From the NCBI RefSeq assembly GCF_019396345.1, contig NZ_JAHKRM010000003.1, positions 62,001 to 126,000 on the forward strand: DNA of 64,000 bases. The letters run 5' to 3'. This DNA is from Nonomuraea guangzhouensis (lineage in GTDB: Bacteria; Actinomycetota; Actinomycetes; Streptosporangiales; Streptosporangiaceae). Shown here piece after piece: positions 17,082 to 34,421 of the stretch. Under the pieces are notes generated by a model. It made no database searches, was not told where the DNA came from, and saw nothing but the letters and a program-made list of their open reading frames with translations. Position 1 is the first letter of the stretch. Each line of letters begins with the position of its first letter. The translations under genes and the position numbers were made by a program.

Positions 17082-18752
17082 ATGCCCGAGGCACTGATCG
17101 AGCGCGTGGCGCGATGGGCGCGGGAGATCCCGGACGCGCCCGCCTACACGTTCGCCGACTACCTGGGTGACGGGTCCCGCGAGACGCTGACCTGGGCTCG
17201 GGCCGATCTCAAAGCGCGGGCGCTGGCCGTACGGCTGCGCGAGGTCGCGGGGCCCGGGGACCGGGTGGCGATCCTGGCTCCCCAGGGACTCGCGTACGTG
17301 GTGGCGGTGCTCGGGACCTTCTACGCCGGGGTCGTGGCGGTGCCGCTGTTCGCGCCCGACCTGCCGGGGCACGCCGACCGGCTGGCCCGCGCCTACTCCG
17401 ACGCCGATCCGGTCGCCGTCCTCACGACCACGGCCGTGCTGCCCGGCGTGCGGGACTTCGCCGTGGGTGCCACGGTGATCACCGTCGACACGGTCTCCGA
17501 CCTGCTCGCCGAGGAGTGGGCGGCCGTACGGGTCGAGCCAGGTGATCTGGCGTATCTGCAGTACACCTCCGGCTCCACCCGGGCGCCCGCCGGGGTGGAG
17601 ATCACGCACGGCAACCTCGCGGCCAACGCCGCGCAGCTGTGGGAGATGTTCCGGGCCAGGCCGCGTACCTCGGTCGCGGCGCTCTGGCTGCCGCTCTTCC
17701 ACGACATGGGGCTGGTCGCGACGGTCGCGCTGCCTATGGTGGCGGGCAACCAGGTGGCGTTCATGGATCCGGTGGCGTTCGTCATGAGTCCGGTGCGCTG
17801 GCTGCGGCTGCTCAGCGAGTTCGACGACGTCTATACCGGTGGGCCGAACTTCGCCTTCGAGTACACGGCGGCCAGGGTCGGCGCGGTCGACAAAGAAGGG
17901 CTGGACCTGTCCGGGGTGCGGGTCATGCTGAACGGCGCGGAGCCGGTACGGCCCGGCACCGTCGAGGCGTTCAACGCCGCGTTCGGCGGGTGCGGCCTGC
18001 GGCCGGAGGCGCACACCCCGGCGTACGGGCTGGCCGAGGCCACGGTCTTCGTCGCCGCCATGCGGCCTGACGAGGCCGTCGTGGCCACGGCCTTCGACCG
18101 CGACGCCCTGCGCGACGGCCGCGCCGTGCCGTACGACGGCGGGTTCGGGGACCTCACCACGCTGGTGTCGTGCGGGCGGGCAGGCGGTCAGCGGGTGCGC
18201 GTCGTCGGCGAGCGCGGCCGGGCACTGCCGGACGGGCACGTGGGGGAGGTCTGGGTCCAGGGCCCGAACGTGGCGCGCGCCTACTGGCGCGATCCTCTGC
18301 GCACGGCCGAGGTGTTCGGCGCGACGCTGGACGGCGAGGACGGCACCTGGCTGCGGACGGGCGACCTCGGGGTCGTGTCCGACGGGCTGCTCTACATCAC
18401 CGGCCGGATCAAGGACCTGATCATCGTCGACGGGCGCAACCACTATCCCCAGGACATCGAGGTCACCGTCCAGGAGGCGCACCGGGCCGTGCGCCGCGAT
18501 CACGTGGCGGCCTTCTCCGTGCCGGGGGAGGAGACCGAGCGGCTGGTGGTGGTGGCCGAGCGGTCGCGCGGGGGCGCGGAGACCGATTCGGCCGAGGTGG
18601 CGGCCCAGGTACGCGCAGCGGTCCGGAAATTTCATGATTTATCCGTGCACGACTTCGTGCTGACGGGCACCGGCACCGTACCCCGGACGACCAGCGGCAA
18701 GATCGCCCGGCGGGCCTGCCTGCGGGCGTACCTGGAGGGCGCCCTTGTTTGA
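17082..18752 (+). CDS. Fatty-acyl-AMP ligase, FadD32-like
   Basis: This 556-residue adenylate-forming enzyme activates a fatty acid as acyl-AMP and hands it to an acyl carrier protein instead of CoA. The ATP loop YTSGSTRAPAGVEITHGNL is of the FAAL type (compare TSGSTRTPAGV in mycobacterial FadD32). Further motifs are WLPLFHDMGL, GGPNFAFEYTAARV, LNGAEPV, the AYGLAEATVFVA segment, and the terminal catalytic lysine in TTSGKIARRA. The ATG at 17082 is preceded by GAGGGG. Its stop lies inside the next gene, MmpL, so they are coupled. The likely acceptor is the N-terminal ACP of the PKS at 27466, as FadD32 serves Pks13. That pairing is inferred. Confidence 0.93.
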   Translation: MPEALIERVARWAREIPDAPAYTFADYLGDGSRETLTWARADLKARALAVRLREVAGPGDRVAILAPQGLAYVVAVLGTFYAGVVAVPLFAPDLPGHADRLARAYSDADPVAVLTTTAVLPGVRDFAVGATVITVDTVSDLLAEEWAAVRVEPGDLAYLQYTSGSTRAPAGVEITHGNLAANAAQLWEMFRARPRTSVAALWLPLFHDMGLVATVALPMVAGNQVAFMDPVAFVMSPVRWLRLLSEFDDVYTGGPNFAFEYTAARVGAVDKEGLDLSGVRVMLNGAEPVRPGTVEAFNAAFGGCGLRPEAHTPAYGLAEATVFVAAMRPDEAVVATAFDRDALRDGRAVPYDGGFGDLTTLVSCGRAGGQRVRVVGERGRALPDGHVGEVWVQGPNVARAYWRDPLRTAEVFGATLDGEDGTWLRTGDLGVVSDGLLYITGRIKDLIIVDGRNHYPQDIEVTVQEAHRAVRRDHVAAFSVPGEETERLVVVAERSRGGAETDSAEVAAQVRAAVRKFHDLSVHDFVLTGTGTVPRTTSGKIARRACLRAYLEGALV

Positions 18753-21516
18753 GTCGGCGGGGCGCCTGATCTACGGCGGCAGGTGGACGCTGCTGGTGCT
18801 GAGCCTGGTGGCGGCCATCCTGGTCGCGCCCTTCGGGCTGCAGCTGTTCGGCCGGATGGCCGACGGCGGCTTCGCGGACCCGGCCGCCGACTCGACCACC
18901 GCCGCCCGCTGGAACGACGCCTGGTACAGCGGCAACACCCCCGACGTCGTCGTCCTCTACCGGCACCCGCAGGTCAAGGTGCGCGACGCGCGGTTCAAGA
19001 AGGCCGTGCACGACTCGCTGCGCGCCCTGCCCGCCCAGTACGTCCGCAAGCTGGCCACGTACTGGACCACCGGCTCCAAGGAGCTGATGTCCACCGACGA
19101 GCACGCCACCTATGCCCTGATCACCCTGAAAGGCGCCAAGCAGCAGGCGTACGCCGCGATCAAGGACCTGCTGCCAGTCGCGAACCTCCAGGTCCAGGTC
19201 GGCGGCTCGGTGCCGCTGCTGAAGGAGCTCAACGACCAGACGGCCGCCGACCTGGCGCGCGCCGAGGCGATCTCGATGCCGGTGCTGCTGGTCATGCTCG
19301 TGGTGGTGTTCGGCAGCCTGGTGGCCGCCGGGCTGCCGCTGCTCGTCGGGCTGCTCGCCGTGATCGGCGCGCTCGTGCTGCTCAGACTGCTGACCGAGGT
19401 GACGGAGGTCTCGGTCTTCTCGCTGAACGTCGTCACCATGCTCGGGCTCGGGCTGGCCATCGACTATTCGCTCTTCGTGCTGACCGCCTTCCGCGAGCAG
19501 ATCAGGTCCGGCCTGCCGACCCGGGAGGCCGTGGTGCGCACCATGGCGACGGCCGGTCGTACCGTCGCCTTCTCCGGCTTGACCGTGGCGACCTCGCTGC
19601 TGGGACTGCTGCTGTTCCCGCAGATGTTCCTGCGCTCGATCGGGTTGGGCGCGGCGGCCGTGGTGCTGGTGGCCATGGTGTCGGCGCTGGTCGTCCTGCC
19701 CGCCGCGCTCGCCGTCCTGGGTCCCCGCGTGGACGCTCTCCGCGTCACCCCTCACTTCGGCGCGGCCCGCGCGGGCGCCGGGGTCTGGCACGCGATCGCC
19801 TCCAGCGTGATGAAACGGCCCGTGCTCTACCTGGTCGCGGTCACGTCCGTACTCCTCGCGCTGGCCGGGCCGTTCGCCCACGTACGGTTCGGCAACGTGG
19901 ACCACCGGGTCCTGCCCGCCGCCTCCGAGAGCCGCCGCGTCGCCGAGACCGTCGACCGCGACTTCGCCAAGAACTCGATGGCCACGATCGACGTCCACGT
20001 CCTCATCGAACGCTCCTTCACCACCCGCCCCGCCGCCCCCGGCCCCCTCGGTCAGGGCTACTCGCCGATCAGCGCCGTCACCCCGATCGACCCCACCGAC
20101 GCCAAGCCCCTCGCCGACCGCCTGCGTAAGCTGCCCGGGGTCACGGGCGTCGACCTCGCCGGCTTCTCCCAGGCCAACGGCGCGATCCGCCTGGCGGTCC
20201 GCTACTCCTACGACCCCATGTCGGACGCGGCCCAGCACCTGGTGACGCTGATCAGATCGATGGCCCCGGAGCCGAACGTCCGCCAGATCGTCGTCGGCGG
20301 CCCGACGGCCGCCCAGATGGACCTACTGTCCAGCCTGCTCGGCCGGCTTCCCTGGATGGCGTTGGTGGTCGGCGGGGTCACGTTCCTGCTGCTGTTCGCC
20401 GCCTTCGGCTCCGTCGTCCTGCCCGTCAAAGCCCTGCTCATGAACGTCCTGTCGATCGGGGCCTCGTTCGGGGTGATCGTCTGGGCCTTCCAGGACGGCC
20501 ACCTGGCACCGTGGCTGCGCTTCACGTCCACGGGGACCATCGAGGCCACGGTGACGGTGCTGATCCTGGCGGTGGTGTTCGGGCTGTCGATGGACTACGA
20601 GCTGTTCCTGCTGTCGAGGGTGCGGGCGGAGTGGCTGCGGACCGGCGACAACACGGCGGCGGTGGCGACCGGTCTGCAGCGGACCGGGGGTGTCATCACC
20701 AGCGCGGCGCTGCTGTTGCTGGTGGTGATCGGGGCCTTCTCGACGGCCGGGATCACGATCGTGAAGCTGCTCGGGGTGGGGATGTTCGTGGCGATCGTGG
20801 TGGATGCCACGCTCGTGCGGGCTCTGCTGGTGCCGGCGACGATGCGGCTGCTGGGTGGGGCGAACTGGTGGCTGCCGGGGGTGTTGCGGGGGGTTCATCG
20901 GCGGATCGAGTTCCGCGAATCTCCACCGCCGGACGGGCGACGGCCTTCTGGGCGTGCGCTTCCTGAACTCCCGCTTTCTGGGCGGGCGGCCTACGGGGAT
21001 GCGGGTTCCGAGGACGCGGCCTCCCCATCGGCGCCGTTCCAGGGCGCCGCGTCGGCGAATGCGGGCGTCGGCGGAGCTCGGCGCCACGAGGCGGCGCTCA
21101 GCCCGCGTCCCGGGAGGGCGATCAAGCCCAACCCGGACGGCCCCGGCTGGCACTGGGCCGAGGACGATCCTGGGGGCGCAGCGGTAACCGTCAACGGCCG
21201 CCCAGCCATCTTCGGCGTGGACACGGACCCCATCCCGGTATCCGCCGAACACGACCCCACGCCTGCCTCGGGGGCCGCCGTTCCCGCGCCTGGCCGTCCC
21301 GTCATCGCGCCCGCCCCGGCGCCCCCCGTCAGAAAGCGGCCCTACAGCACCGCCAAGTCCGCGGTCCCCAAGCGGCCACCGGCCACCGACGACCCGGACG
21401 CTTCCGGCTCCGAGACGCAGCGGCCCACCTGGGAGAAGGTCACCGCCGGTCGTACCAGGGTCGTCAGGGCGAACCCCGACGGACCCGGCTGGACCTGGGC
21501 GGAAGTGGACACGTGA
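18745..21516 (+). CDS. MmpL/RND family lipid exporter, MmpL3-like, with repeat-bearing C-terminal tail
   Basis: This 923-residue RND-type transporter has two six-helix halves with large extracytoplasmic loops after the first helix and after helix 7. The proton-relay Asp-Tyr pairs of MmpL3 are both present: D240-Y241 (AIDYSLF) and D617-Y618 (GLSMDYELF). After the last helix and the segment LGGANWWLPGVLR comes a cytoplasmic, low-complexity tail of about 200 residues containing two copies of NPDGPGW-x-WAE (796-806 and 910-920). The start is TTG at 18745, overlapping the ligase stop by 8 bp. Its position between an acyl-AMP ligase and a glycosyltransferase suggests export of a lipid or glycolipid. 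Confidence 0.92.
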   Translation: MFESAGRLIYGGRWTLLVLSLVAAILVAPFGLQLFGRMADGGFADPAADSTTAARWNDAWYSGNTPDVVVLYRHPQVKVRDARFKKAVHDSLRALPAQYVRKLATYWTTGSKELMSTDEHATYALITLKGAKQQAYAAIKDLLPVANLQVQVGGSVPLLKELNDQTAADLARAEAISMPVLLVMLVVVFGSLVAAGLPLLVGLLAVIGALVLLRLLTEVTEVSVFSLNVVTMLGLGLAIDYSLFVLTAFREQIRSGLPTREAVVRTMATAGRTVAFSGLTVATSLLGLLLFPQMFLRSIGLGAAAVVLVAMVSALVVLPAALAVLGPRVDALRVTPHFGAARAGAGVWHAIASSVMKRPVLYLVAVTSVLLALAGPFAHVRFGNVDHRVLPAASESRRVAETVDRDFAKNSMATIDVHVLIERSFTTRPAAPGPLGQGYSPISAVTPIDPTDAKPLADRLRKLPGVTGVDLAGFSQANGAIRLAVRYSYDPMSDAAQHLVTLIRSMAPEPNVRQIVVGGPTAAQMDLLSSLLGRLPWMALVVGGVTFLLLFAAFGSVVLPVKALLMNVLSIGASFGVIVWAFQDGHLAPWLRFTSTGTIEATVTVLILAVVFGLSMDYELFLLSRVRAEWLRTGDNTAAVATGLQRTGGVITSAALLLLVVIGAFSTAGITIVKLLGVGMFVAIVVDATLVRALLVPATMRLLGGANWWLPGVLRGVHRRIEFRESPPPDGRRPSGRALPELPLSGRAAYGDAGSEDAASPSAPFQGAASANAGVGGARRHEAALSPRPGRAIKPNPDGPGWHWAEDDPGGAAVTVNGRPAIFGVDTDPIPVSAEHDPTPASGAAVPAPGRPVIAPAPAPPVRKRPYSTAKSAVPKRPPATDDPDASGSETQRPTWEKVTAGRTRVVRANPDGPGWTWAEVDT

Positions 21517-22862
21517 CCCTGGCCTTCACCCCAGCCCAGCCCGCCACCCGCTCCCCGCTGCTCCTGACGGTCGTCGGGTTGGCCGGGTTCGTGACGACGC
21601 TGGACAACACCGTGGTCACCGTCGCCCTGCCCAGCATCCAGCGCGACCTCCACACCCGCCTGAGCGCGCTCGAATGGGTCGCCACCGGCTACATCCTGAC
21701 CTTCGCCGGTCTCATGATCGCCGGTGGCCGCCTGGCCGACGTGTACGGGCGGCGCAAGGTGCTGCTCGCCGGACTCACCGTCTTCACCGTGGCGTCGCTC
21801 GGCGCCGGGCTGGCCACGTCGATCGAGCCGCTGGTCGCCGCGCGGCTGGCGCAGGGGGCCGGGGCGGCGCTCATCCTGCCCGCGACGCTGGCCGTACTGG
21901 CGGGCCGGGCGGATCGGTCGCTGGGGGTGGCCGTCTGGATGGCGTCGGGAGCCGGGGCGCTGGCGCTGGGGCCGGTGGTCGGCGGGTACCTGAGCCAGCA
22001 CGCCCACTGGAGCTGGGTCTTCCTGATCAACGTGCCCCTGGGGGCGGCCGTCATCGCACTGGCCGCCGTCGCGATACCGGAAACGCGCTCCGAACAGCGG
22101 CTCAGGGTGGACGTGCCCGGGTCGCTGGCATCGGTGGTGTTTCTGGCTTGCGGGACGTTCGCGCTGATCCACGGCGGCGAGTACGGCTGGGCGTCGCCGC
22201 CCATCGTGCTCGCGGTGGCCGGATGCGCGGGCGGGGGAATGCTGTTCCTGATGGTGGAGCGTGGGGCGCGGGAGCCGATGGTGGAGCTGGGGCTGTTCGC
22301 GGTCAGGAGCTTCGCGGGCGGGGTGCTGGCTCAGGTGCTGTGGGGGCTCGGGGTCAATGGGGTGTTCTTCTACACCGCGCTGTTCCTGCAAGGGGTGCTC
22401 GGGTTCACGCCTACGGCCTCTGGGGTGGCGTTCGTGCCGTTGGCGTTGCTGGTCGTGGTCGTCACGCCGCTGGTGCCGGTGATCGAGCGGCGGCTGGGGA
22501 GCGGGCGGACGGTCGCCTGCGGGCTGGTGCTGGTGGCGGGTGGGATGGTCGTGGCGGCGTTCCTGGAGGCGGGGGACGGGTGGGCGCGGTTGGGGCCCGC
22601 CGTCTGCGCGATCGGGGTGGGGTCGGCGTTGACCATGCCGCTGGGGTCGGCTGTGCTGGGAGCGGTGCCGGAGTCTCGGGCCGGGGTGGCGGGCGGGATC
22701 TTCTCCGTAAGTCGTGAGATTTCCGGCCTGTTGGGGATTGCGGCTATTGGGGTGATCGTGCACGAGGCCGGGAGCTTTTCTCAGGGGTACGCGCTCGGGT
22801 TACTGGTGGCGGCGGCCCTCGTACTACTGGGCGCGTTGATCGCCTTGCTGGCACTGCCGTGA
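21513..22862 (+). CDS. MFS transporter, DHA2 (14-helix) type
   Basis: This 449-residue permease has the antiporter motif LDNTVVTVALPSIQRDL in helix 1 and motif A in GGRLADVYGRRKV, with about 14 hydrophobic segments as in EmrB/QacA drug exporters. The GTG start overlaps the MmpL stop (GTGA) and its own stop overlaps the glycosyltransferase start, so it belongs to the same operon. In this context it may export a lipid precursor or provide self-protection. The substrate cannot be told. Confidence 0.92.
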   Translation: MTLAFTPAQPATRSPLLLTVVGLAGFVTTLDNTVVTVALPSIQRDLHTRLSALEWVATGYILTFAGLMIAGGRLADVYGRRKVLLAGLTVFTVASLGAGLATSIEPLVAARLAQGAGAALILPATLAVLAGRADRSLGVAVWMASGAGALALGPVVGGYLSQHAHWSWVFLINVPLGAAVIALAAVAIPETRSEQRLRVDVPGSLASVVFLACGTFALIHGGEYGWASPPIVLAVAGCAGGGMLFLMVERGAREPMVELGLFAVRSFAGGVLAQVLWGLGVNGVFFYTALFLQGVLGFTPTASGVAFVPLALLVVVVTPLVPVIERRLGSGRTVACGLVLVAGGMVVAAFLEAGDGWARLGPAVCAIGVGSALTMPLGSAVLGAVPESRAGVAGGIFSVSREISGLLGIAAIGVIVHEAGSFSQGYALGLLVAAALVLLGALIALLALP

Positions 22863-24088
22863 GGGTCGCGGTGCTGGCAATGGGGTCGCGGGGGGACATC
22901 CAGCCGTGCGTGGCGCTGGCCCAGGAGTTCGGTGCGCGCGGGCACGAGGTCACGCTCGTGGCGCCGGAACGCTACGAACGCCTGGCGGTGGGGCGCTATG
23001 AGCGTCCCGGAGTGCGGTTCGCGGCGTTAGGGGTGGATCCCGTCGCGATCGTGGAGAGCGAGGAAGGACAGGCGTGGTTGCGTAGCGGGCCGCTGGGGTT
23101 CGTGCGGGGCCTGCGAGCCGTCGTCGAGCCCCTCGCCGCGACGCTCCTCACCGAGGTGGACGCCGCCTGCGCGGACGCCGAACTGGTCCTCGCGCCCGCC
23201 CTCGGCTCCTTCGGCAGGCACCTGCACGAGAGGTACGGCATGCCGTACGGGATCCTGCAGTTCCAGCCCAGCGAGCCGACCGGCGAGTTCCCGAACCCGC
23301 TGATCCCGCGCCGGACCCTGGGCAGGATCGGCAACCGGGCCAGCTATGCCGCGGTCGAACGGCTCGGCTGGCTGATGCTGGCCCCGATGGTGAACCGGCT
23401 GCGCGGGCAGGTGCTCGGGCTGCGGCCGTTACGGGGCAGCCCGTTCGCGGCCGACCGGCGGGATCGGGTGCCGGTGCTGTGCGGGGTCAGCCCGCTGGTG
23501 GTGCCCAGGCCGTACGACTGGCCCGACTATGTGCACCTCACCGGCTACTGGTGCCTCTCACCCGACCCGGGCAGCTCGCTCCCCTCCGACCTCGCCGGCT
23601 TCCTGGACGATGGGCCGCCTCCTGTGTACGTCGGGTTCGGCAGCATGGTGCCGGACGAGCCGGAGGCGGTCGCCGAGCAGGTGGTCGCAGCAGTGCGGCT
23701 GGCCGGGGTACGGGCGGTGGTTCAGGGGCTGCCCGTGGCGGCGTCGGCGGACGTCTGCCCGGTGGGAGAGGTGACGCACGAGGTGCTGTTCCCGCGAATG
23801 GCCGCCGTTGTGCACCACGGTGGGGCGGGGACCACGGCGGCGGGGCTGGCGGCCGGGGTGCCCAATGTCGTCTGCCCCTTCTTCTCCGACCAGCCGTTCT
23901 GGGGACGCAGGGTGGCGGTGTTGGGGGCGGGGCCGCCGCCGTTGCCGATCAGGGCGCTGAGCGGGCGGTCGCTGGCCGCGCGGCTGCGGGCTGTACCGGA
24001 ATATAACGATAAAGCCGCGCAACTCGGGAAACTACTAAAGGTTGAACGCGGCGTGAAGAACGCCGTTGATCTCATTGAAGGTAGCTGA
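22859..24088 (+). CDS. Glycosyltransferase family 1 (UGT/sterol glucosyltransferase-like)
   Basis: This 409-residue GT-B enzyme transfers a sugar from a nucleotide sugar to a lipid or other small acceptor. The N-terminal domain begins RVAVLAMGSRGDIQPCVAL, the signature of sterol/MurG-like enzymes. The C-terminal donor site contains PVYVGFGSMVPDEPEA and the motif VVHHGGAGTTAAGLAAGVP, then PFFSDQPFWGRRV. The start is GTG overlapping the MFS stop. It ends the FAAL-MmpL-MFS-GT operon and could glycosylate the lipid made by this locus. The last codons (24000-24088) are visibly less GC-rich than the rest. Confidence 0.93.
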   Translation: MRVAVLAMGSRGDIQPCVALAQEFGARGHEVTLVAPERYERLAVGRYERPGVRFAALGVDPVAIVESEEGQAWLRSGPLGFVRGLRAVVEPLAATLLTEVDAACADAELVLAPALGSFGRHLHERYGMPYGILQFQPSEPTGEFPNPLIPRRTLGRIGNRASYAAVERLGWLMLAPMVNRLRGQVLGLRPLRGSPFAADRRDRVPVLCGVSPLVVPRPYDWPDYVHLTGYWCLSPDPGSSLPSDLAGFLDDGPPPVYVGFGSMVPDEPEAVAEQVVAAVRLAGVRAVVQGLPVAASADVCPVGEVTHEVLFPRMAAVVHHGGAGTTAAGLAAGVPNVVCPFFSDQPFWGRRVAVLGAGPPPLPIRALSGRSLAARLRAVPEYNDKAAQLGKLLKVERGVKNAVDLIEGS

Positions 24089-24140
24089 TCATCCAGATAT
24101 TGTGCGATGTGTCCACGATCACCCCTTGGAGTAAGGCGCC

Positions 24141-25424
24141 ATGCGACTGAGGAAGATTTTCGTCATCGGATTGGCACTCTCACTGTTAGGCATAGGTGTT
24201 CCAGCCTGGTCGGAGGACGATCCGCGTAGCTGTAACGACCTGATGTCCGGTGACACGCCGGCGTACGTCGTCTGCCGCTGGATGGCCACGCCGGAAGAGG
24301 CGCTCGACATCGCCAACTTCTGGCTCGCGAACGACGGCGAGCACCTGCAAGAAGCCGGCCCGATGGACCCGATCACCGTCGACTGCACCGAAGCCGGCAA
24401 CGAGTGCGCCAACGACTCCGAGGGCGACGGCCAGCTGCACGACGTCGACTCGCCCGACGTCGAGGGCGCCGAGGACGGTGGCTCGCCCGAGTGCCAGTCC
24501 GGTGAAGAGTGCTTCGTCAACCCCGAGGGCCTGTCGGCGGCCGAGATCCAGGCCGCCGAGAAGACCGCGGGTGGCCAGGCCGTCAAGGCCGCCGCCGCGG
24601 CCGGGATGCGCGTCTGGATCGACGCCGAGCTGGCCGACGACTGGAAGGCGGGCAAGCTCGCCGAGGCGGCCAAGAAGGTCGCCGCGGTCGCGGCGCAGCA
24701 GGGGGCCGTGGGGATCAGGTTCAGCTCGCAGCTCGGGTTCAACAAGACGTTCGAGACGGCTGACGAGATCGACAAGTTCGTCACCGAGGCCACGACCACG
24801 CTCCACAACCTCGCGCCGGGCAAGAAGCTGGCCGTGCACACGGTGGTGCCGCTGCTCGGCTGTGGCGCCAACGACGCGTGCAAGGCCGAGATGACCAAGA
24901 AGTACCCGCTGCTCGACCCCGAGCGGATCGGCGCCTGGCTCACCAAGGGCCTGGTCGACCAGCTCGCCCTGGACAGCGGTCACCTGGCGACGGAGTACGC
25001 CACCTGGAAGATCGACGCCACCGAGGCCCAGCGCAACCAGTGGATCCAGGTCCGGGCGCGCGCGTGGGACGCCTACGGTCAGATCGCCGCGGAAGACGCG
25101 GGCTTCGCCACCGTGGGCTCGCCGCAGCTCACCACCGAGCAGGCGACCAAGTCGATCACCGACCGCATCGCCGCCCCGCTCCAGGCCGACGCCGCCGAGA
25201 CGGTCAACCTCTGGTCCCGCTGGCAGAACGACCAGGGGCAGGTCAGCAGGCTGTACGGGGAGAAGTGGGCGGAGAACGCCACCTGGGAGCAGCTGAAGAA
25301 GCTGACCTCGATCCGTCCCCGGCTGGCCACGATCTACGACCCGTCGGCGCCGGAAGTCGACACGGCTACGGACCTCAAGAAGCTGTCCGAGGTGTTCGGC
25401 CAGGTGTACCTGCACACCGCCTGA
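24141..25424 (+). CDS. Secreted protein of unknown function, 427 residues
   Basis: An N-terminal signal peptide (MRLRKIFVIGLALSLLGIG, cleavage near PAWS) precedes an acidic, cysteine-bearing region (about 30-130, four or more cysteines, many Asp/Glu). A larger alpha/beta region (140-427) contains MRVWIDAELADDW, a segment resembling a sugar-hydrolase barrel strand, and later helices. A GGAG precedes the ATG by 12 bases, at the long end of the usual spacing. It lies 52 bp after the glycosyltransferase gene on the same strand and is followed by a strong terminator, so it may be the last gene of that transcript. No family is recognised; a glycoside-hydrolase-like barrel is only a guess. Confidence 0.75.
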   Translation: MRLRKIFVIGLALSLLGIGVPAWSEDDPRSCNDLMSGDTPAYVVCRWMATPEEALDIANFWLANDGEHLQEAGPMDPITVDCTEAGNECANDSEGDGQLHDVDSPDVEGAEDGGSPECQSGEECFVNPEGLSAAEIQAAEKTAGGQAVKAAAAAGMRVWIDAELADDWKAGKLAEAAKKVAAVAAQQGAVGIRFSSQLGFNKTFETADEIDKFVTEATTTLHNLAPGKKLAVHTVVPLLGCGANDACKAEMTKKYPLLDPERIGAWLTKGLVDQLALDSGHLATEYATWKIDATEAQRNQWIQVRARAWDAYGQIAAEDAGFATVGSPQLTTEQATKSITDRIAAPLQADAAETVNLWSRWQNDQGQVSRLYGEKWAENATWEQLKKLTSIRPRLATIYDPSAPEVDTATDLKKLSEVFGQVYLHTA

Positions 25425-25443
25425 CGTACCGACACAAGAAAAG

Positions 25444-26038: not shown

Positions 26039-26088
26039 CGGGGAAAACCAGCGGTTTGTCGGTTTGAGGGCGCCCGGAAAGCTGCGGT

Positions 26089-27249
26089 TTACGGCCGGGA
26101 CGCCAACTCCCAGTCATGCCGGTTGTCCACCTTGGGCGAGCCGCCGCCCGGCAGGCCCAGCGCGGCCAGGATCATGGGGTAGGAGTTCTTGAACTCCCTG
26201 ATCCAGTACGGCCAGGTGTGGGTGCCGTTGCCGTACAGGTTCAGGGTGTGCTGGATGCCCAGGCTGTTCAGCCGCTTGCTTAGGGCCTTGGCCGTGTAGG
26301 CGGAGATGGGTTCGCCGAGGTGGGCCGGGTGCCAGGGGGAGCCGGGCGGGTCCAGGGGGCCCATGAAGCTGTTCGTGCCGCTCGAGATGTAGATGGAGAC
26401 GCCCTTGAGGCCCGGCGCCAGGGCCACGGGGTCGTTGGCCGCCCAGACCCTGCTGTCGCGGAGGGGGTCGCCCCAGAGGGCCTTGGGGTCCTGCTTCTCG
26501 CTGGCCTGGGCGTTCATGATGATCGCGGGGATGCCGGGGAGCCGGGTGGCCATGATGCCGCTGTACGCACCGGCGAAGCGGAACATTCCCGGATAGCGGG
26601 CCGCGTACTTGATCGCCCCGTACGCGCCCATCGACAGCCCGGCGACGGCTCGGCGGGTGCCCGCGCGGTAGCCGATCTCCAGCAGCCGCCGCACCTCGTA
26701 CGTGTGGAACGTGGCCCACGCTGGTGTGCCGCCCTTGCCGTTGTTGTACCAGTCTGAGTAGTTGCCGGCTCGGCCTGCTTCCGGCATGACGACCATGGCG
26801 TCCAGGTTCTCGGTGAAGGCGGCGATGTCCGTCATGCGGGTCCAGGACGTGTAGTTGTCGGCGCCGCCGTGCAGGAGGTACAGGACGGGCCAGGTTCGGT
26901 TCGCGTTCTTGGACCAGCCCTTGGGGAGCAGCAGGCGGACCGGGGTCATCTGGCCGATCGACGGTGAGGAGATCAGAAGGTCGAGCATGCGGGGGCTCAG
27001 CCACCGCTCCCGCACGACGCGGGCGCTGCCGGGGAGGGCCTTCTGGCCGGGCACATAGTTCGCGGTCCCGGGGTCCGCCGCTGGCCGCCGACCATCCGAA
27101 CCGGCGCGATGGGCGTCGGTGGTCGGCGGCTGCGTGGCCGTCTTGCCGTCGGGCACGATCGACCAGCCTGGATCGGCGAGCGCGGGAGTGGCGCTCGACC
27201 CGACGAGGAGCACCGTCGTCGCCAGTGCCAGCAGGCCGTGGGATCGCAT
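26089..27249 (-). CDS. Secreted alpha/beta-hydrolase of the antigen 85/esterase D family
   Basis: This 386-residue exported protein has a signal peptide (MRSHGLLALATTVLLVGSSA, cleavage near ALA-DP), a disordered linker to about residue 75, then an alpha/beta-hydrolase domain. Landmark segments match mycobacterial antigen 85 mycolyltransferases: YSDWYNNG, the nucleophile elbow GLSMGAYGA (S206), FAGAYSGIM, and the histidine motif GNGTHTWPYW (H344; antigen 85 reads GTHSWEYW). The ATG at 27249 has AGAGGAG upstream; the longer open frame is not used. It is divergent from the PKS gene with 216 bp between. It could transfer acyl groups outside the cell or act as a simple esterase. Confidence 0.9.
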   Translation of the reverse strand: MRSHGLLALATTVLLVGSSATPALADPGWSIVPDGKTATQPPTTDAHRAGSDGRRPAADPGTANYVPGQKALPGSARVVRERWLSPRMLDLLISSPSIGQMTPVRLLLPKGWSKNANRTWPVLYLLHGGADNYTSWTRMTDIAAFTENLDAMVVMPEAGRAGNYSDWYNNGKGGTPAWATFHTYEVRRLLEIGYRAGTRRAVAGLSMGAYGAIKYAARYPGMFRFAGAYSGIMATRLPGIPAIIMNAQASEKQDPKALWGDPLRDSRVWAANDPVALAPGLKGVSIYISSGTNSFMGPLDPPGSPWHPAHLGEPISAYTAKALSKRLNSLGIQHTLNLYGNGTHTWPYWIREFKNSYPMILAALGLPGGGSPKVDNRHDWELASRP

Positions 27250-27321
27250 GAGGGCTCCTCTCCGCAAGTGAGACCGTGGCGAGGCTAGGGGCCACGGCAC
27301 CGGCCCAGCTATGACCCAATG

Positions 27322-27340
27322 CAACGAAATATCGTCGTTG
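27322..27340. promoter_or_regulatory. Inverted repeat between the esterase and PKS genes, candidate operator
   Basis: CAACGA-AATATCG-TCGTTG is a 6-7-6 inverted repeat in the 216-bp divergent region. A regulator binding here could control both the secreted esterase and the PKS-CCR operon. No regulator gene is adjacent except PucR at the far end of the operon. Confidence 0.4.
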
Positions 27341-27465
27341 GTTGCGCTCTGCCGGACAAAACCGGGGGGTTGTCACCGGCGTGATAAATCGAACCCGAAG
27401 AATGTTCGGTACGGGGCTGCCCCAGCGCCGGAGGGCGCGGGTATGTTGGCCGACCACCCGGCAGC

Positions 27466-30400
27466 ATGGGAGCCCTCGTGAACGTACTGGGTGAAGCCGA
27501 CATCCGCCGCTTCCTCACCGAGCGGATCGCGTCACGCGGAGCCGAGCGGGTCGATCCGGAACGTCCGCTGGAGGAGTACGGCCTGTCGTCGCGTGACGCG
27601 GTGGCGATCGCGGGCGAGCTGTCCGAACTGCTCGGCAGGGAGCTGAGCCCGACCCTCGCCTGGGAGCACCCGACGATCAACCGCCTGGCCCGCGCACTCG
27701 CCGCGCCGCCGCGGGAAAGCGAGCCGCCGAGGGAAAGCGAGCCATCGCGGGAAAGCGAGCCGGGAGCCCCCGGTGTGCTCGGGGAGCCGGTGGCGGTGGT
27801 CGGGGTGGGGTGCCGGTTGCCGGGCGCGCACGGCCCAGGGGCGTACTGGGACCTGCTGCTCGAAGGGCGGGACGCGGTCGGTGAGGTACCCGCCGGCAGG
27901 TGGGAGGCGTTCGACGACGGGTCGACGCGCACGGAGGAGGTGCTGGCCAGGACGACCAGGCATGGCGGGTTCCTGGCGGATGTGGCGGGGTTCGACGCGG
28001 AGTTCTTCGGGATCGCGCCGGGCGAGGCGGCGCTCATGGATCCGCAGCAGCGGTTGCTCCTGGAGACGGCTTGGGAGGCGCTGGAGCACGGCGGCATCGC
28101 CCCGAGGTCGCTGGGCGGCAGCCGTACCGGGGCGTTCGTCGGCATCTCCAGCACCGAGTACGCCTATCTGACCAGCGCGGACCTGTCCGGCGTCGGTGCG
28201 TGGACGGCCACCGGCGCGGCGCCCAGCATCGCCGCGAACCGCCTGTCATACCTGCTCGACCTGCGCGGCCCCTCGATGGCGGTGGACACGGCCTGCTCGT
28301 CCTCGCTCGTCGCCACCCACCTCGCGGTAGGCGCCCTGAGATCGGGGGAGTGCGACCTGGCCCTGGCCGCCGGCGTGAACCTGCTGCTGTCACCCCTGGT
28401 CACGGTGGCGTTCGACCAGGGCGGCGGCACGGCGGCGGACGGGCGGTGCAAGGCGTTCGACGCGTCGGCCGACGGCATGGTGCGGGCGGAGGGCTGCGGC
28501 GTCGTCGTACTCAAACGCCTGGCGGACGCCGAGCGGGACGGCGACCGGGTGCTCGCGGTGATCACGGAGACCGGCGTCAACCAGGACGGCCGCTCGAACG
28601 GCCTCGTCGCCCCGAACCCCGAGGCGCAGGAGGCCCTGTTGCGCGAGGTGTACGAGGGGCTGGACCGGGGGCCCGACTACGTGGAGGCGCACGGAACGGG
28701 CACGTTCCTCGGCGACCCCATCGAGGCGCGGGCCATCGCCGCGGCGTTCCCCGGGCCGGTGCTGCTCGGCTCGGCCAAGACGAACCTCGGCCATCTGGAG
28801 GCGGCTGCCGGGGTTGCGGGGCTCATCAAAACGGTCCTGGCGCTGTGGCACGGCGTGATCCCGCCCAGCCTGCACTTCCGGCAGCCGAACCCGCACATCC
28901 CCTGGGAGACGCTGCGGGTCGTCACCTCGCCCACGCCTTGGCCCCGGCCGGACGCGCGAGCGGGGGTGTCGTCGTTCGGCTTCGGCGGCACCAACGCGCA
29001 CGTCGCCCTGGCGGCGTACCGGGCGCAGGAGGCGGCAATCGCCCGGCCCGTCCCCGCCAAGCACGTCTTCGTCCTGACCGGTGCCACCCCCGATCGCGTC
29101 AGGCAGCACGCGGAGACCCTGGCCGCCTGGCAGCCCACGGCCGACCTCCGCGACGTGGCCCACACCCTGGCCAGGCGGGCCGGTCCTGCTCGCAGCGCCA
29201 CAGCAGTGCTGGCCGCCGACATACCCGAGCTGAGAGAACGACTCGCCGCCGTCACCCCCCGACCCGTCCCCCTGGCTCCGGTCGGGCCGGTGTGGGTCTT
29301 CAGCGGCTACGGCTCGCAGTGGCAGGGGATGGGCCACCACCTCTACGAAACGGAACCGCCCTACAGACAGGCGATCGACGAACTCGCCCCCCTTCTCCAT
29401 GCCGAGGCCGGCATCGATCTTCAGGCCCAGGGCGTCACCACGGTTCAGCCCATGATCTTCGCCGTCCAGGTGGCCTTGGCCCGCCTGTGGCAGGCGTACG
29501 GCATCGAGCCCGCTGCGGTGATCGGCCACTCGATGGGCGAGGTAGCGGCCGCGGTGGTGGCGGGCGGCCTCGACCTGCCCGACGCGGTACGGGTGATCTG
29601 CCGCCGCGCCCGCCTCCTCGGCACCGTCGGCAGCGGAACCGGGGCCATGGCCGTGGTCGGGGTGGGCGCCGGGGAGGTGCCCGGTGACCTGCATGTGGCG
29701 GTTCATGCCGCGCCCAGCCAGACCGTCGTCACCGGTGACCCCGAGCGGATCGCCCGGTTCGTGGCGGAGGTCGAGGCCAGAGGTCTGTTCGCCAGGACGC
29801 TCACCACCGAAGGCGCCGGTCATTCACCCCAGGTCGCCCCCTTGCTGCCGAAGATCCGGGCCGAGCTCGCCGCCATCGCCCCGGCCAGGCCGCGCCTGTC
29901 GTACTACTCCACGGTCTTCGACGACCCCCGCGAGACCCCCACGTTCGAGGCCGCGTACTGGGCCGCGGGTGTGCGCCGCCCGGTGCGGCTGCTCCAGGCC
30001 GTACGGGCCGCCGCGGAGGACGGCTTGACCGTCTTCACCGAGGTGAGCCCGCACCCCTTGCTGAGCCAGGCGCTCCAGGACACGCTCCCGGCCACCACGC
30101 TGATCACCCACTCCCTCGAACGCCGTCACGACCACGCCTTCCACACCCAGCTCGCCACCGTGGCCACCGCCATCACGCCCAGGACGCGGGGCCGGGTGGT
30201 GGACGTACCGGGAGCGCCGTGGCGGCACACGCGCCACTGGGTCACCCCGTACCGCCGCCCACCGGGACACCGCCTGCTCGGCGCGCACGTCGAGTCCCCC
30301 GCCGGACACTCGTGGAGCACCACGCTCGACGACCTCGCCGACGCGCCCTGGCGGCTGGAGTCGTCCGGCTGGCATCGCCACGGCCACCCCGTGCTCCCGC

Positions 30401-33132
30401 TCAGCGTCGTGGCCCGGCTCGCGCACGCGGCCGCCACGGAGGTGTACGGATCGGCGGAGGTGTACGAGGTGGCCCTGCACGCGTTGCTGCCCCTGCCCGC
30501 GCGGGTGACGGTCACGTTGACGGGCACCCGGATAGAGCTGGCGGCCAAGAACGCCGCGGGCTCCTGGACGGTCTACGGCTCGGCCTGTCTCACACAGACG
30601 GCACGGCCGACTGAGGCCCTGGAGAGGGTACAGCGGGTGGCCGCGGACGGCACGCTCCACGGGGTCGGTACCCGGGAGATCCCGGCGTCGAGCATCCCGG
30701 TGCCCCTCGACGACAAGCTCGTCGAACGCGTCTGGGTCCCCGCCCCCTTGCCGGCGACTCCGACGGGTGGCGGGTCGGGTGCCGTCGTACGGGTGCCACG
30801 GCTGCTCGATCCTCGGGCGGCTCAGCGGATGATCCTGAAACTGGCCCACCTCGCCGACCAGGGGACAGAGCTCACGATCGTCACCGAACGCGCTCAGACC
30901 GTACGGGACGGAGAAGCGGCCGATCCCGGTCCCGCCTCGGTGAGCGGGCTGGTCAGGGTGCTGGCGTTCGAGCGCCCAGAAGTGCGCGTCAGGCTGGTGG
31001 ATGTCGACGACCTCAACGCGCTGGCACAGGAACTCGCCGCTGACAGCGGGGAAGACGAAGTGGCCTGGCGCGATGGCACGCGCTATGCGGCCCGGCTGCG
31101 CCGCGTTCCCCTGACGCCCGGGTCGCATCCCCCGGTCGCCGGGCCCGGTGGTTATGTGATCACCGGTGGGAACGGAAGGCTCGGGCTGGTCGTCGCGCGC
31201 TGGCTGGCCGGTCGCGGTGCCACCCGCATCGTGCTGAACGGCCGCTCCGCCGCTCCCGTGCCGAGTGATCTCGTGGGCGTCGCCGAGGTGGTGGTGGGCG
31301 ATCTGGCCGCTCAGGGTACGGCCGAGCAGCTCGTGGCGGCTGCGACCGACGGAGGGGTACGGCTACGCGGAGTCGTACACGCCGCCGGCGTCCTGGACGA
31401 CCGGCTGACAGCCGATCTCGACCTGGGCAGCCTCCAACGGGTCTGGGCCGCCAAGGTGGACGGCGCGCTCCGCCTTCACCAGGCCACCGAATACCTGGAC
31501 CTCGACTGGTGGGTGGCCTTCTCCTCGGCCGCCGCACTGCTCGGGTCCCCTGGCCAGGCCGCTTACGCCACCGCCAACGCCTGGCTGGACGCCCTCTGCC
31601 AGTCGCGTCGTGCGCGGGGGCTGCCCGCCGTCGCCATCGGCTGGGGTACGTGGGCCGGGGCGGCCGCGATGCCCGGGGTCGAGCCGTTGACCGTTGAGGA
31701 GGGTGTCGAGGCGTTGGAGGCGTTGATCCAGCGTGACCGGTGCGCTGGGGTGGTCAGGGTCGCTCCGGCCGCGGCTTTGTCGGTGTTCCCGGGGATCGGT
31801 CGCCTTCCGTACTTCTCGGAGGTCGCCCCGGAAGCGGCGCGCGATCTCGCCGAGCGGGGGCCCGAGGAGGTCGTGCGGCAGGTCAGGGAGCGGGTCGCGG
31901 CCGTGCTCGGGGTGGAGCCGGAGCGGCTCGACGAGGGAGCCGTGCTCACCGGGCTGGGGCTCGACTCGCTGGCCGCCACTCGGCTGCGTGGCACGATCGA
32001 GTACGACTTCGGTGTCACGATCCCGACGGCGCCGCTGCTCAACGGCGGGACGCTGGGCGACCTGGCCCGCACCGTCCTAGGCATCACACAGCCTGAACCG
32101 GCGAGCGCGATGGTGGGCCCGAGGGATGCGGCGGAGCGGCAGGTGGTCAGGGTGCTGACCGGCCTGCTCGGACGCGTGCCCTCGGTCACCGAGACGATCG
32201 CGCCGGACGTGCTGGCGACCGCCCTCGACCTCCTCAGCCACGAACTCGGCAGACCGGTCGAGACAGGCTCTGGGGTCCGGGTGGCCGAGATCGCCGATGC
32301 CGTACGCCAGGGCGAGGTCGCCGAGGCCGGGCTCGCCGTCGTCAGACCCCTCACCACACGGACCGGCGGCCGGCCGCTGTTCCTGGCGCACCCCGCCGGT
32401 GGCACCACAGGCGTGTACGCCCTGCTGGCCGCCCGCCTGGACCTCCCGGTCATCGGCCTGGAACGGCTGGACGACGCGGCTGAGCTGGGCATCCCCGAGC
32501 GGGCCGCCCGCTACGCCGAGGCCGTCAAGCGGACCTGTCCCGGGCCTTACCGGCTGGGCGGATGGTCGTTCGGCGGGACTCTGGCCTTCGAGATCGCCAG
32601 ACGGCTGGACGACGACGCCGAGCTGGTCGCGATGATCGACGCGGGCCTGCCGACGAGGGTGCCGGAGGAGCGGCGGCGGGAGATCCAGGCCCAGCGGTAC
32701 GCCGATTTCGCGACATATCTGCATAACACCTACGGCGTTCAGGTCCGCCTGGACAAGCACGAGCTCCGGCAGCTCGACGAGCGCGCGCAGCTCACGCTGG
32801 CCGAGGAGCGGATCGCGGAGTCCGGCGTGCTGGACCTGCTCAGCCCGGCCATCCTGCGCCACCAGATCACCTCGCACGAGGACACCCGGGCCCTCGACCG
32901 GTACGAAGCCGGGCCGTACCAGGGCGAAGTGGTTCTCTACCGTTCCACGGAGCCGACCCCCTGGACGGTCGAGGACGTGCGGTACGCGCACCAGGACGAT
33001 CCGGCGCGCGGCTTCCGCCCCCACAGCCCGCGCCTGGAGATCGTCGAGATCGCCGGCTCGCATCACCTCAACCTGCTCGACCCACCCCACGTCGAAGGCA
33101 TCGCCGACGACCTGAAGAGGAGGCTCGCATGA
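27466..33132 (+). CDS. Pks13-like type I polyketide synthase, ACP-KS-AT-(DH)-KR-ACP-TE
   Basis: This 1888-residue single-module synthase has the following domains. N-terminal ACP (about 5-75): S42 in [10 protein letters not shown], as in Pks13. KS (about 109-520): C277 in DTACSSSL, H409, H443. AT (about 606-900): S689 in GHSMGE and GAGH at 783-786, where other ATs read YASH or HAFH. A DH-like remnant (about 940-1050): W969 stands where the catalytic His of HxxxGxxxxP should be, so it is probably dead. KR (about 1080-1420): TGGNGRLG 1233-1240, S1354, Y1367 and an LDD motif (B type). C-terminal ACP: S1501. TE: S1701 in GWSFGG, H1866/H1867. Likely product: an alpha-substituted beta-hydroxy acid. 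GTG 27478, preceded by GGGAG, may be the true start. Confidence 0.93.
27712..27765 (+). repeat. 18-bp coding tandem repeat in the ACP-KS linker
   Basis: Three 18-bp units encode [12 protein letters not shown] and RESEPG between the N-terminal ACP and the KS of the PKS. The repeat lengthens a flexible charged linker and may differ in copy number among relatives. Confidence 0.9.
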
Positions 33133-34421
33133 CGCTGGCAGAGGCCGTGGTGGCGGGCGCGGGGCCCGCCGAGCTGGCGAGCCTGGAGGTGCCGACCCGC
33201 TACCGGGCCTTGTACCTGCGCAAGGACGAGGTCGGCATGTTCGGCGACATGAGCGACAAGGACGTACGGAAGTCGCTGCACGTGGGGGAGGTGCCGATGC
33301 CGGAGCTGGCGCCCGACGAGGTGCTTGTCGCGGTCATGGCCAGTGCGATCAACTTCAACACGATCTGGTCGGCCATGTTCGAGCCGATCCCGACGTTCGC
33401 GTTCCTGGAACGGTTCGGGCGCACCGACCCGCGCCACGACCTGCCCACCCACGTGCTCGGCTCCGACGCGGCCGGGGTGGTGGTCAGGACGGGTCAGGCC
33501 GTACGGCACTGGCGGGCCGGGGACCGGGTGGTCACCAGCCCCGCCTACCTCGACGGCCAGGACCCGATCGTGCAGCACGACGGGATGCTGGCCGCGGACC
33601 TGCGCGCGTGGGGGTTCGAGACGAACTTCGGGGGGCTGGCGGAGTTCGCGGTGGTCAAGGCGACGCAGTTGCTGCCCAAGCCGCGGCAGCTGAGCTGGGA
33701 GGAGGCGGCGTGCAACATGCTGTGCGCGTCGACCGCGTACCGGATGCTGGTCGGCGAGCGCGGCGCCCGGATGAAGCAGGGCGACGTGGTGCTGCTGTGG
33801 GGGGCGTCGGGCGGGCTCGGCGCGTACGGCGTGCAGCTCGTCAGGAACGGTGGCGGCATCCCCGTCGGCGTGGTGAGCTCCCCGGAGAAGGCCGCGCTGC
33901 TGCGCCGGATGGGCTGCGAGCACGTCGTCGACCGCTCACGCTTCGACGACCTGACCGATGAGAAGGGGTGGCGCGGGCTGGGGGCGGAGATCCGGCGCCA
34001 GGTGGGCGAGGACCCGGCCATCGTGTTCGAGCACACCGGAAGGGACACTTTCGGCGCTTCGGTATATGTCGCGAAAAAGGGCGGGAAGGTGGTCACGTGT
34101 GGGTCGTCCAGCGGGTACGACCACGCCTACGACAACCGGCACCTGTGGATGCGGCTCAAGCAGATCATCGGCTCCCACGGCGCGAACTACCAGGAATGCC
34201 ACGAGGTCAACCGCCTCATCTCACTCGGCATGATCCACCCCACGCTCTCCCGCGTCTACCCGCTGGCCGAGGCGGCGGACGCCGCGCGGGCCGTCCAGCT
34301 CAACCAGCATGTCGGGAAGGTCGGCGTGCTGACCCTGGCCCCCGGCCCGGACCTCGGCATCGAGGACCCCGCCCACCGCGACCGCATCGGCGAGGACCGC
34401 CTCAGACTGTTCCGTTCCTAG
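33129..34421 (+). CDS. ccr: Crotonyl-CoA carboxylase/reductase (CCR)
   Basis: This 430-residue medium-chain reductase converts a 2-enoyl-CoA, CO2 and NADPH to a (2S)-alkylmalonyl-CoA extender unit. CCR hallmarks are clear: FEPIPTFAFLERFGR, WGFETNFGGLAEFAVVK (F163 and E164, CO2-binding positions), LLWGASGGLGAYGVQL, FEHTGRDTFGASVYVAKKGG, and H350 in IIGSHGAN. Ethylmalonyl-type CCRs read GSHFAN here, so the Phe-to-Gly change may enlarge the acyl pocket. The ATG overlaps the PKS stop (ATGA), so the enzyme is made together with the PKS and most likely supplies its extender. It ends 4 bp before the convergent PucR gene. Confidence 0.94.
   Translation: MTLAEAVVAGAGPAELASLEVPTRYRALYLRKDEVGMFGDMSDKDVRKSLHVGEVPMPELAPDEVLVAVMASAINFNTIWSAMFEPIPTFAFLERFGRTDPRHDLPTHVLGSDAAGVVVRTGQAVRHWRAGDRVVTSPAYLDGQDPIVQHDGMLAADLRAWGFETNFGGLAEFAVVKATQLLPKPRQLSWEEAACNMLCASTAYRMLVGERGARMKQGDVVLLWGASGGLGAYGVQLVRNGGGIPVGVVSSPEKAALLRRMGCEHVVDRSRFDDLTDEKGWRGLGAEIRRQVGEDPAIVFEHTGRDTFGASVYVAKKGGKVVTCGSSSGYDHAYDNRHLWMRLKQIIGSHGANYQECHEVNRLISLGMIHPTLSRVYPLAEAADAARAVQLNQHVGKVGVLTLAPGPDLGIEDPAHRDRIGEDRLRLFRS

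Follow-up and report, generated by a model that had tools for sequence, protein, structure and literature searches.

Can an actinomycete outside the mycolata make and export a mycolate-like lipid? The mycolata are defined by having mycolic acids, the origin of which has yet to be settled. That question is raised here by a stretch of 64,000 nucleotides from Nonomuraea guangzhouensis (positions 62,001 to 126,000 of contig NZ_JAHKRM010000003.1; the whole stretch is hereafter the window), whose positions 17082-34421 hold a polyketide synthase (PKS), a fatty acyl-AMP ligase (FAAL), a homologue of crotonyl-CoA carboxylase/reductase (CCR) and a set of putative export and transfer proteins. The reading proposed here, to which we give a rough probability of 0.65, is that this locus serves to synthesise and export an acyl lipid resembling mycolates, using Pks13/FadD32 chemistry in which two steps have been re-engineered; the PKS is, judging from its sequence, an evolutionary cousin of the mycolic-acid condensing enzyme. 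The host, a soil actinomycete of the Nonomuraea group, is presumed to be without mycolic acids, the waxy lipids known from mycobacteria. Its genome (G000) comprises 13.67 Mb in 127 contigs, with a contamination score of 7%, and carries the locus on its contig C51; the five best named relatives of the MmpL protein of the window, 83-88% identical to it, all belong to Nonomuraea. A preliminary description of this DNA had claimed seven genes for the interval, and all of them are in place, although it had missed a secreted protein of 427 amino acids, a degenerate dehydratase (DH) and an extra segment resembling an acyl carrier protein (ACP), marked by PRDAAER, before the thioesterase (TE) of the PKS. 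With the ketosynthase, acyltransferase and ketoreductase domains abbreviated as KS, AT and KR, the genes are, in order:

17082-18752, plus strand: FAAL, FadD32-like, the predicted loader of the N-terminal ACP of the PKS (PDB, NCBIfam and tree)
18745-21516, plus strand: MmpL3-like lipid exporter of the resistance-nodulation-division type, with a long C-terminal tail (PDB matches)
21513-22862, plus strand: pump of the major facilitator superfamily (MFS), DHA2/EmrB-type (PF07690; TIGR00711 at 219.8 bits, below its cut-off of 230.2)
22859-24088, plus strand: glycosyltransferase (GT) of the GT1/GT28 type, sterol-glucosyltransferase-like (PF06722, PF03033)
24141-25424, plus strand: secreted protein of 427 amino acids with a TIM-barrel-like model (predicted structure)
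26089-27249, minus strand: secreted esterase of the PS1/antigen 85 (Ag85) mycolyltransferase type (PF00756, PDB)
27466-33132, plus strand: Pks13-clade PKS of 1888 amino acids, ACP-KS-AT-dead DH-KR-ACP-ACP*-TE (Pfam, NCBIfam, alignment and KS tree)
33129-34421, plus strand: CCR homologue, CinF-like (TIGR01751, PDB)

The FAAL, MmpL, MFS and GT genes form a single overlapping operon, in which FAAL and MmpL share 8 bases and MmpL/MFS and MFS/GT 4 bases each, as do PKS and CCR. The FAAL is read from the ATG at 17082, behind a purine-rich stretch (its longest open reading frame begins at 17004), and the esterase from the ATG at 27249 of the minus strand (its longest frame begins with a TTG at 27324). 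Taken as sequence scores, the matches of the FAAL, the MmpL, the esterase and the CCR to their known counterparts exceed chance by far.

How close, then, is the PKS to Pks13? Its domains are arranged as follows:

27493-27705 (approximate), plus strand: N-terminal ACP, YGLSSRDAV (PDB match and motif)
27784-29010, plus strand: KS (PF00109/PF02801)
29290-30132, plus strand: AT, with GAGH at the specificity site (PF00698)
30268-30645 (approximate), plus strand: decayed DH, N-terminal half, homologous to the DH* of Pks13 (PKS_DH_N, E 9.5e-6, below cut-off)
31147-31656, plus strand: KR, with the catalytic Lys, Ser and Tyr and an LDD motif (PF08659, 161.9 bits)
31879-32073, plus strand: C-terminal ACP, GLDSL (PF00550)
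32107-32370 (approximate), plus strand: segment resembling ACP*, placed ahead of the TE like that of Pks13 (PRDAAER; alignment and hhalign)
32371-33129, plus strand: Pks13-type thioesterase/acyltransferase, the TE (PDB; GWSFGG, Asp and His motifs)

The KS was placed in a tree of 54 domains, in which the family is sampled by 14 of its 120 listed homologues and the outsiders are taken from the best-scoring KS of six genomes. A branch with support of 100/100 sets 16 family rows, two PKSs of a Streptomyces-like family (f3) and nine Pks13 of a mycobacterial family (f4) apart from the 27 other KS, both family labels being inferred from gene content; several of those 27 come from f4 genomes, and MAS and PpsD are not identified by name among them. 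Within that branch, the KS of Pks13 form their own group (100/100), paired with the Streptomyces-like KS at 92/97, while a single clade made up of the family KS alone is neither rejected (p-AU 0.405) nor shown. The two ends of the protein agree with the tree. The seven top PDB matches of the TE are all Pks13 (E 4.5e-35 to 1.9e-32), the next class following at 1.6e-14, and the N-terminal ACP matches best the ACP of a mycolate PKS (7wrp, E 1.4e-11), followed by an unrelated carrier (4hkg, 9e-11) and by two Pks13 entries in third and fourth place (the third at 4.8e-10). As for the segments in between, the available passages of the cryo-EM study of M. tuberculosis Pks13 describe a dead DH* that corresponds to the N-terminal half of a dehydratase, as well as a non-functional ACP directly before the TE (PMC11649247). 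Both have counterparts in the family: in hhalign comparisons, the segment of Pks13 that follows the AT matches the decayed DH of the family at 96.3% (P 1.9e-9; best of 30 column shuffles, 0.069), and the ACP* of Pks13 matches the PRDAAER segment at 96.4% (P 1.3e-9; best of 30 shuffles, 0.1). These profile matches lead us to interpret the DH* of Pks13 as what remains of a reducing PKS like that of the window. Mere generic similarity among PKSs was considered as an explanation and rejected, given the KS tree, the searches with the TE alone and with the N-terminal ACP alone, and the DH* and ACP* profile comparisons.

Which of these domains would be active? This was assessed in an alignment of 121 sequences (the window protein and the 120 listed homologues), counting the nine commonest variants of each motif. 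The KS motif DTACSSS is present in 120 of them, the remaining one being gapped at that site; the AT motifs GHSMGE and GAGHS are kept in at least 119 and at least 118, respectively; GWSFGG of the TE is found in all 121, and the motifs of the KR and the C-terminal ACP, together with the Asp and His motifs of the TE, are conserved among the variants counted. The DH motif HxxxGxxxxP is missing from 115 of the 121 sequences, the window protein having a Trp at the position of the His, and an active DH was rejected on this count. Six sequences contain the literal motif; among them P0183, from a metagenome, appears intact, and the same may hold for P0196 and P0199. The loss of this motif, together with the presence of the KR, argues that the chain should stop at the beta-hydroxy stage; the beta-hydroxy product foreseen in the preliminary description thus appears to be right, the KR acting in cis, and its proposal that a built-in KR replaces the separate reductase is borne out by a KR with intact motifs. 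Mycobacteria use a separate enzyme for reducing the keto group (PMC2568869).

Among the partner proteins, the FAAL has its best PDB match in FadD32 (5d6j; 457.5 bits, E 5.8e-136), and the insertion that we take to be specific to FAALs aligns with that of FadD32; its score against the FAAL model PRK12476 is 572.6 bits, short of the cut-off of 922. In the FAAL tree, the family FAALs and one Actinomadura-like FAAL (L193) join the Streptomyces-like ones (97/94), and the next branch holds nine FadD32 and three other f4 FAALs (87/83), whereas ten FAALs named FadD21/28-like after their NF004509 scores stand apart. The KS test of the mycolate link is stronger than the FAAL test. The MmpL scores 366.8 bits against MmpL3 (E 3.2e-108) and 104.3 against MmpL5, and the Asp-Tyr pairs of two of its membrane helices, presumably the functional ones, align with those of MmpL3. 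Its tail is rich in Pro and bears two NPDGPGWxWAE motifs, the last GWxW being invariant in 15 aligned sequences. The esterase is closest to PS1 (6sx4; 165.9 bits, E 1.6e-47), followed by Cmt1 (77.2) and Ag85A (66.5), and its Ser and His motifs, GLSMG and HTWPYW, align with those of PS1; by fold family and by these motifs it is of the Ag85/PS1 type, for which acyl transfer is predicted. The CCR exceeds the cut-off of TIGR01751 (514.8 versus 378.55 bits) and scores higher against the octenoyl-CoA reductase/carboxylase CinF (4a0s, 568.9 bits) than against any crotonyl type (up to 496.9). It shares with CinF an Ala (before WGFETN) and a Gly (GSHGAN), whereas the crotonyl types have Ile and Phe; counting the own loci, this Ala is found in 34 and this Gly in 33 of 37 CCR loci, and the motif was not found in the rest. 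One source states that a CCR gene providing an unusual extender always lies in a cluster with the PKS that uses this extender (PMC5187497). The GT is nearest to a sterol 3-beta-glucosyltransferase among PDB entries (149.1 bits) and to the rifamycin glycosyltransferase Rgt among NCBIfam models (113.2 bits, short of the cut-off of 800). The 427-residue protein matches no Pfam or NCBIfam model; its predicted structure (pLDDT 63.7) has a low-confidence N-terminal part followed by a TIM-barrel-like one, with weak, generic TIM-barrel matches.

How would these proteins work together? The FAAL would adenylate a fatty acid and load it on the N-terminal ACP of the PKS, while the CCR would reductively carboxylate a medium- or long-chain 2-enoyl-CoA to an alkylmalonyl-CoA that the AT would place on the C-terminal ACP. 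A Claisen condensation by the KS would then give an alpha-alkyl-beta-keto acyl chain, the KR (behind the dead DH) would reduce it to the beta-hydroxy acid, and the Pks13-type TE would hand this chain to a sugar or a similar acceptor. Finally, the GT would add or supply the sugar, the MmpL and/or the MFS pump would export the product, and the secreted PS1/Ag85-like esterase would transfer acyl chains outside the cell. The scheme starts from the genes themselves, their linkage, the grouping of the KS with Pks13 and the catalytic motifs that were kept or lost; we infer the substrates, the chain lengths, the acceptor, the order of the last two steps and a role at the envelope or cell surface. No arabinosyltransferase of the Emb type (PF04602) was found in the own genome, and none above cut-off in 18 genomes of the same genus, the scan giving one weak match in that genus (E 2.8e-4), three matches in the f4 genome G038 and a positive result in the C. 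glutamicum control. Because the own genome has no Emb match, the probable product is a glycolipid in free form rather than one esterified to arabinogalactan; "mycolate-like lipid" is a fair label, "mycolate cell wall" is not.

The likeness to the Pks13 (Rv3800c) system thus covers an N-terminal ACP beside a FAAL gene, a KS of the same clade, an AT, a DH*, a C-terminal ACP, an ACP* and a Pks13-type TE, and the likeness to the FadD32/AccD4/MmpL3/Ag85 set extends to an MmpL3-like exporter and a PS1/Ag85-like esterase nearby. Unlike Pks13, the PKS of the window has a KR built in between the DH* and the ACP, its AT is nearer to MAS, and it stays below the NCBIfam cut-offs; and unlike in that system, a CCR, instead of AccD4, lies beside the PKS (a replacement that had already been proposed and that holds), a GT and an MFS pump are added and Emb is missing. 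The CCR resembles CinF as its best PDB match and in carrying Ala and Gly for the Ile and Phe of the crotonyl enzymes. CinF serves another kind of pathway, and the CCR of the window differs from it in neighbouring a Pks13-clade PKS. With MAS and Pks2 the PKS shares the order KS-AT-DH-KR, and its top whole-protein and AT scores among solved structures. Nevertheless, MAS has an enoylreductase and an active DH and lacks a Pks13-type TE, and the KS of the window is separate from all 27 other KS of the tree.

Is this set of genes held together by more than chance? A scan with an MmpL alignment gave 283 confirmed stretches, and the 80 best loci among them are considered here. The FAAL lies directly upstream of the MmpL in 67 of the 67 loci that have a FAAL, the other 13 of the 80 being without one. 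In 47 of the FAAL loci, 9.5 kb or more of downstream sequence is covered; there, an MFS pump is seen in 44, a GT in 43, a PKS in 39, an esterase in 26 and the secreted protein in 20; the CCR, which mostly falls beyond the stretch examined, appears in 3. A survey of 297 genomes of the taxonomic order of the host (thresholds of E<=1e-25 for the TE and E<=1e-130 for the FAAL) found the TE in 101 genomes, the FAAL in 101 and both in 98, although the Fisher test on this co-occurrence ignores phylogeny. In 77 genomes the pair shares a contig, in 71 of these it lies within 30 kb and in 70 of these 71 on the same strand; the other 24 genomes with a TE have no FAAL on the contig of the TE, and three of these 24 have no FAAL match at all. 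The CCR adjoins the PKS in all 29 loci examined, which are the best-scoring ones from the search of that taxonomic order and therefore lean to closer relatives. A chance neighbourhood was rejected on the TE/FAAL pairing and on the CCR-PKS and FAAL-MmpL adjacencies. That the two operons, FAAL to GT and PKS-CCR, are conserved together, a test named in the preliminary description, holds for Nonomuraea, Streptosporangium, Planomonospora and Planobispora and, in rearranged form, for Actinomadura, Thermomonospora and Spirillospora. The 427-residue protein is present in loci of Nonomuraea, Thermoactinospora, Planomonospora, Planobispora and Streptosporangium, and absent from those of the Actinomadura type. 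Of the 65 genomes from one Actinomadura-like genus, 59 have the TE.

A number of observations weigh against the proposed reading. Some concern the proteins: the AT scores 229.3 bits against MAS, 186 against PpsA and 178.5 against Pks13, and the whole PKS 829 against MAS and 763.1 against Pks13, which runs contrary to the rejection of generic similarity; the PKS reaches 1081.9 bits with the Pks13 equivalog model NF040607, whose cut-off is 2100 (its top NCBIfam model, NF045894, gives 1083.5 bits, also short of its cut-off of 1740), the FAAL 553.5 with the FadD32 equivalog NF038339 (cut-off 975), and the MmpL 441.8 with the MmpL3 model NF052608 (cut-off 1400). The description of the PKS as Pks13-like stands for the KS clade, the N-terminal ACP, the TE, the DH* and the ACP*, and fails for the AT, the whole-chain score and the NF040607 cut-off, while the ligase scores far above the CoA ligases and lies nearest the FadD32 group, on a branch supported at only 87/83, and stays below the FadD32 cut-off. 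The signs of a long-chain extender are also assumptions of ours: GAGH is taken to mark a long-chain AT, and the Ala and Gly of the CCR presumably open its pocket to long chains, a rule for which no open paper was found. Other observations concern the linkage. Within the 47 long-enough FAAL loci, 8 have no PKS in reach and only 26 have the esterase, and in its own genus the TE is patchy, being found in 20 (own included) of at least 40 genomes. In two Nonomuraea loci, L018 (10001-13736) and L027 (10001-13771), the MmpL and the secreted protein stand side by side without FAAL, MFS pump or GT, and their genomes (N. rhizosphaerae and N. fuscirosea; one of only 5.9 Mb) give no TE match at all, two controls being positive; the MmpL and the secreted protein have thus outlasted the FAAL and the PKS. 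Because of this co-loss, the PKS, FAAL, GT and MFS pump look like one unit to which the MmpL is more loosely linked; the MmpL may also serve something else, and it may have, with the secreted protein, a role of its own in those two genomes. MmpL3-like genes without a FAAL were found in 11 further loci as well. These (L035, L036, L038-L043, L047, L053 and L065) are about 51% identical to the MmpL of the window, come from Dactylosporangium, Virgisporangium, Phytohabitans, Jiangella, Herbidospora and Streptomyces, and have no FAAL or PKS in the stretch examined.

Could the product be, instead of an envelope lipid, a diffusible glycolipid (biosurfactant or antibiotic), such as a macrocyclic beta-hydroxy-acid glucoside similar to glucolipsin or cycloviracin? 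We consider this unlikely, in spite of a GT of the sterol/antibiotic type, a drug-type MFS pump and the patchiness within the own genus, all of which would suit it. The acyl chemistry would be the same, with the GT glucosylating the beta-hydroxyl, the TE or the esterase linking the carboxyl to C6 of the sugar and the MFS pump exporting the product. In the available passages on these compounds, glucolipsin consists of two glucoses and C18 acyl chains with a methyl on C2 and a hydroxyl on C3, C6 of glucose being joined to C1 of the acyl chain (PMC4365757). The resemblance thus lies in beta-hydroxy acyl chains on glucose, alpha-branched in glucolipsin, and the difference in a methyl branch or none versus a long alkyl branch, those passages describing no gene cluster (PMC4365757). 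The methyl of glucolipsin is at odds with a CCR that is CinF-like; furthermore, a PKS present in nearly all genomes of the Actinomadura-like genus (59/65) would be unusual for a natural-product cluster, and an MmpL3-type exporter and a PS1/Ag85-type esterase accompany the PKS.

The combination of a FAAL with a PKS is also the logic of phthiocerol dimycocerosate synthesis, and a phthiocerol-like lipid pathway would fit it, as it would an AT that scores MAS and PpsA above Pks13. This pathway was proposed for a PKS that is probably a published homologue of the one described here: K4S16_13_05730 (t1pks-1) of Actinomadura sp. K4S16, a lone ACP-KS/AT/DH/KR/ACP/ACP-TE enzyme termed phenolphthiocerol-like on the basis of an 87% match to a sequence entry labelled M. 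tuberculosis PpsD (PMC7256010). It is probably the PKS of our locus L064 (same strain, record number 13) and its domains follow the same order, down to the two ACPs that precede the TE; the available passages leave a FAAL, MmpL, CCR or esterase context unmentioned (PMC7256010). For the locus of the window, we regard a phthiocerol-like route as very improbable, since its KS falls with Pks13 and apart from the other KS of the tree, its N-terminal ACP and TE match mycolate PKSs best, there is a single condensing module, and its FAAL stands apart from the FadD21/28-like group. Least probable of all is that the PKS, FAAL and CCR make a beta-lactone (of the ebelactone/lipstatin type) or a free beta-hydroxy acid beside an unrelated MmpL and secreted protein, for, even if these two persist alone at L018 and L027 after the loss of the PKS, and no MmpL match lies near the second cluster of the own genome (see below), the FAAL adjoins the MmpL in 67/67 FAAL loci, the TE belongs to the Pks13 type of acyltransferase and the esterase resembles PS1.

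If the locus does make a mycolate-like lipid, how far does the pathway reach? A TE search of 396 genomes of the phylum (E<=1e-25) found the TE twice in the own genome, and also in two genomes of f3 and in 14 of f4 (one match each). The second own copy marks another Pks13-clade cluster (G000:C95:240653-252617; L140, 6653-18617), composed of FAAL-PKS-CCR-MFS plus an oppositely oriented PS1/Ag85-like esterase gene; in this cluster the FAAL lies directly before the PKS, as it does in nine mycobacterial-type loci. No MmpL or GT match was found in 40 kb around it, which also counts against the proposed reading. The cluster could in principle stem from another organism, given the contamination score of 7%, though the nearest KS to its own is that of P0187, a protein from Nonomuraea. 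In those nine f4 loci, the TE match is the PKS beside the FAAL, and a frame of the size of AccD4 (514-560 amino acids) is adjacent. The two f3 loci, L141 (4741-16187) and L142 (5168-14856), have carboxyltransferase-FAAL-PKS-esterase, an INTERMEDIATE form, with a content close to that of accD4/fadD32/pks13/fbp. They resemble the locus of the window in having the FAAL, the Pks13-clade PKS and the PS1/Ag85-like esterase in a row (and, in L141, a PucR-type regulator by the esterase), and differ in that a carboxyltransferase (PF01039) replaces the CCR and the PKS of L141 is without a KR; a DH* was not seen in the PKS of L142, nor the DAAER motif in that of either locus. A wider search of the f3 family found the TE in 26 of 200 genomes, in reading frames of 430-2772 amino acids, and the esterase adjoining the PKS in 17 of 20 loci. 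Some of the f3 loci look like the AccD4 version of the same pathway.

On this basis, a wider reading can be put forward, tentatively and at somewhat less than even odds: mycolic acid synthesis would be just one offshoot of a more ancient pathway, more widespread among actinobacteria, for alpha-alkyl-beta-hydroxy acyl glycolipids, in which the Streptosporangiales kept the KR and took a CCR extender and would today make an unrecognised mycolate-like surface lipid, the DH* and ACP* of Pks13 would be remnants of a reducing PKS of the kind retained in this family, and an AccD-type intermediate would survive in some Streptomyces-like genomes. Among the papers listed in searches of the open literature, judged by title and opening of the abstract, none ties such a PKS to a FAAL, an MmpL3-like exporter, a CCR and an esterase, or to Pks13, and neither "Streptosporang-" nor "Nonomuraea" occurs in the available text of a review that deals with how the mycobacterial envelope arose (PMC6194230). 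A sister condensing system of this kind would mean that these bacteria, although not of the mycolate group, may produce a lipid similar to mycolates which has escaped routine chemotaxonomy; the conserved gene set suggests that a related lipid was overlooked and that the origin of mycolate chemistry is wider. With this family, the dead half-domain DH* of Pks13 can be explained in a way that is open to testing, and the family supplies homologues of the Pks13-type TE and ACP and of MmpL3-type exporters from non-pathogens for mechanistic work.

As for the surroundings of the locus, a PucR-type regulator (34426-35634, minus strand) adjoins the CCR; by the CCR, 18 of 29 related loci have such a regulator, with 89-100% identity across the portion covered, and a weaker PucR adjoins the esterase in 8 of 20 Streptomyces-like loci, so a PucR is possibly a common regulator of both kinds of locus. 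Upstream, on the minus strand of positions 9318-16893, an L,D-transpeptidase, a fumarylacetoacetase, a homogentisate dioxygenase-like protein, an IclR regulator and an MFS protein form a block that resembles tyrosine/homogentisate breakdown and that flanks the locus in many other Nonomuraea too. Further downstream, the stretch 41142-46685 has a lower GC content at third codon positions and encodes a helix-turn-helix/DUF5753 protein and a 916-residue protein with a CBM96 match; it was possibly acquired.

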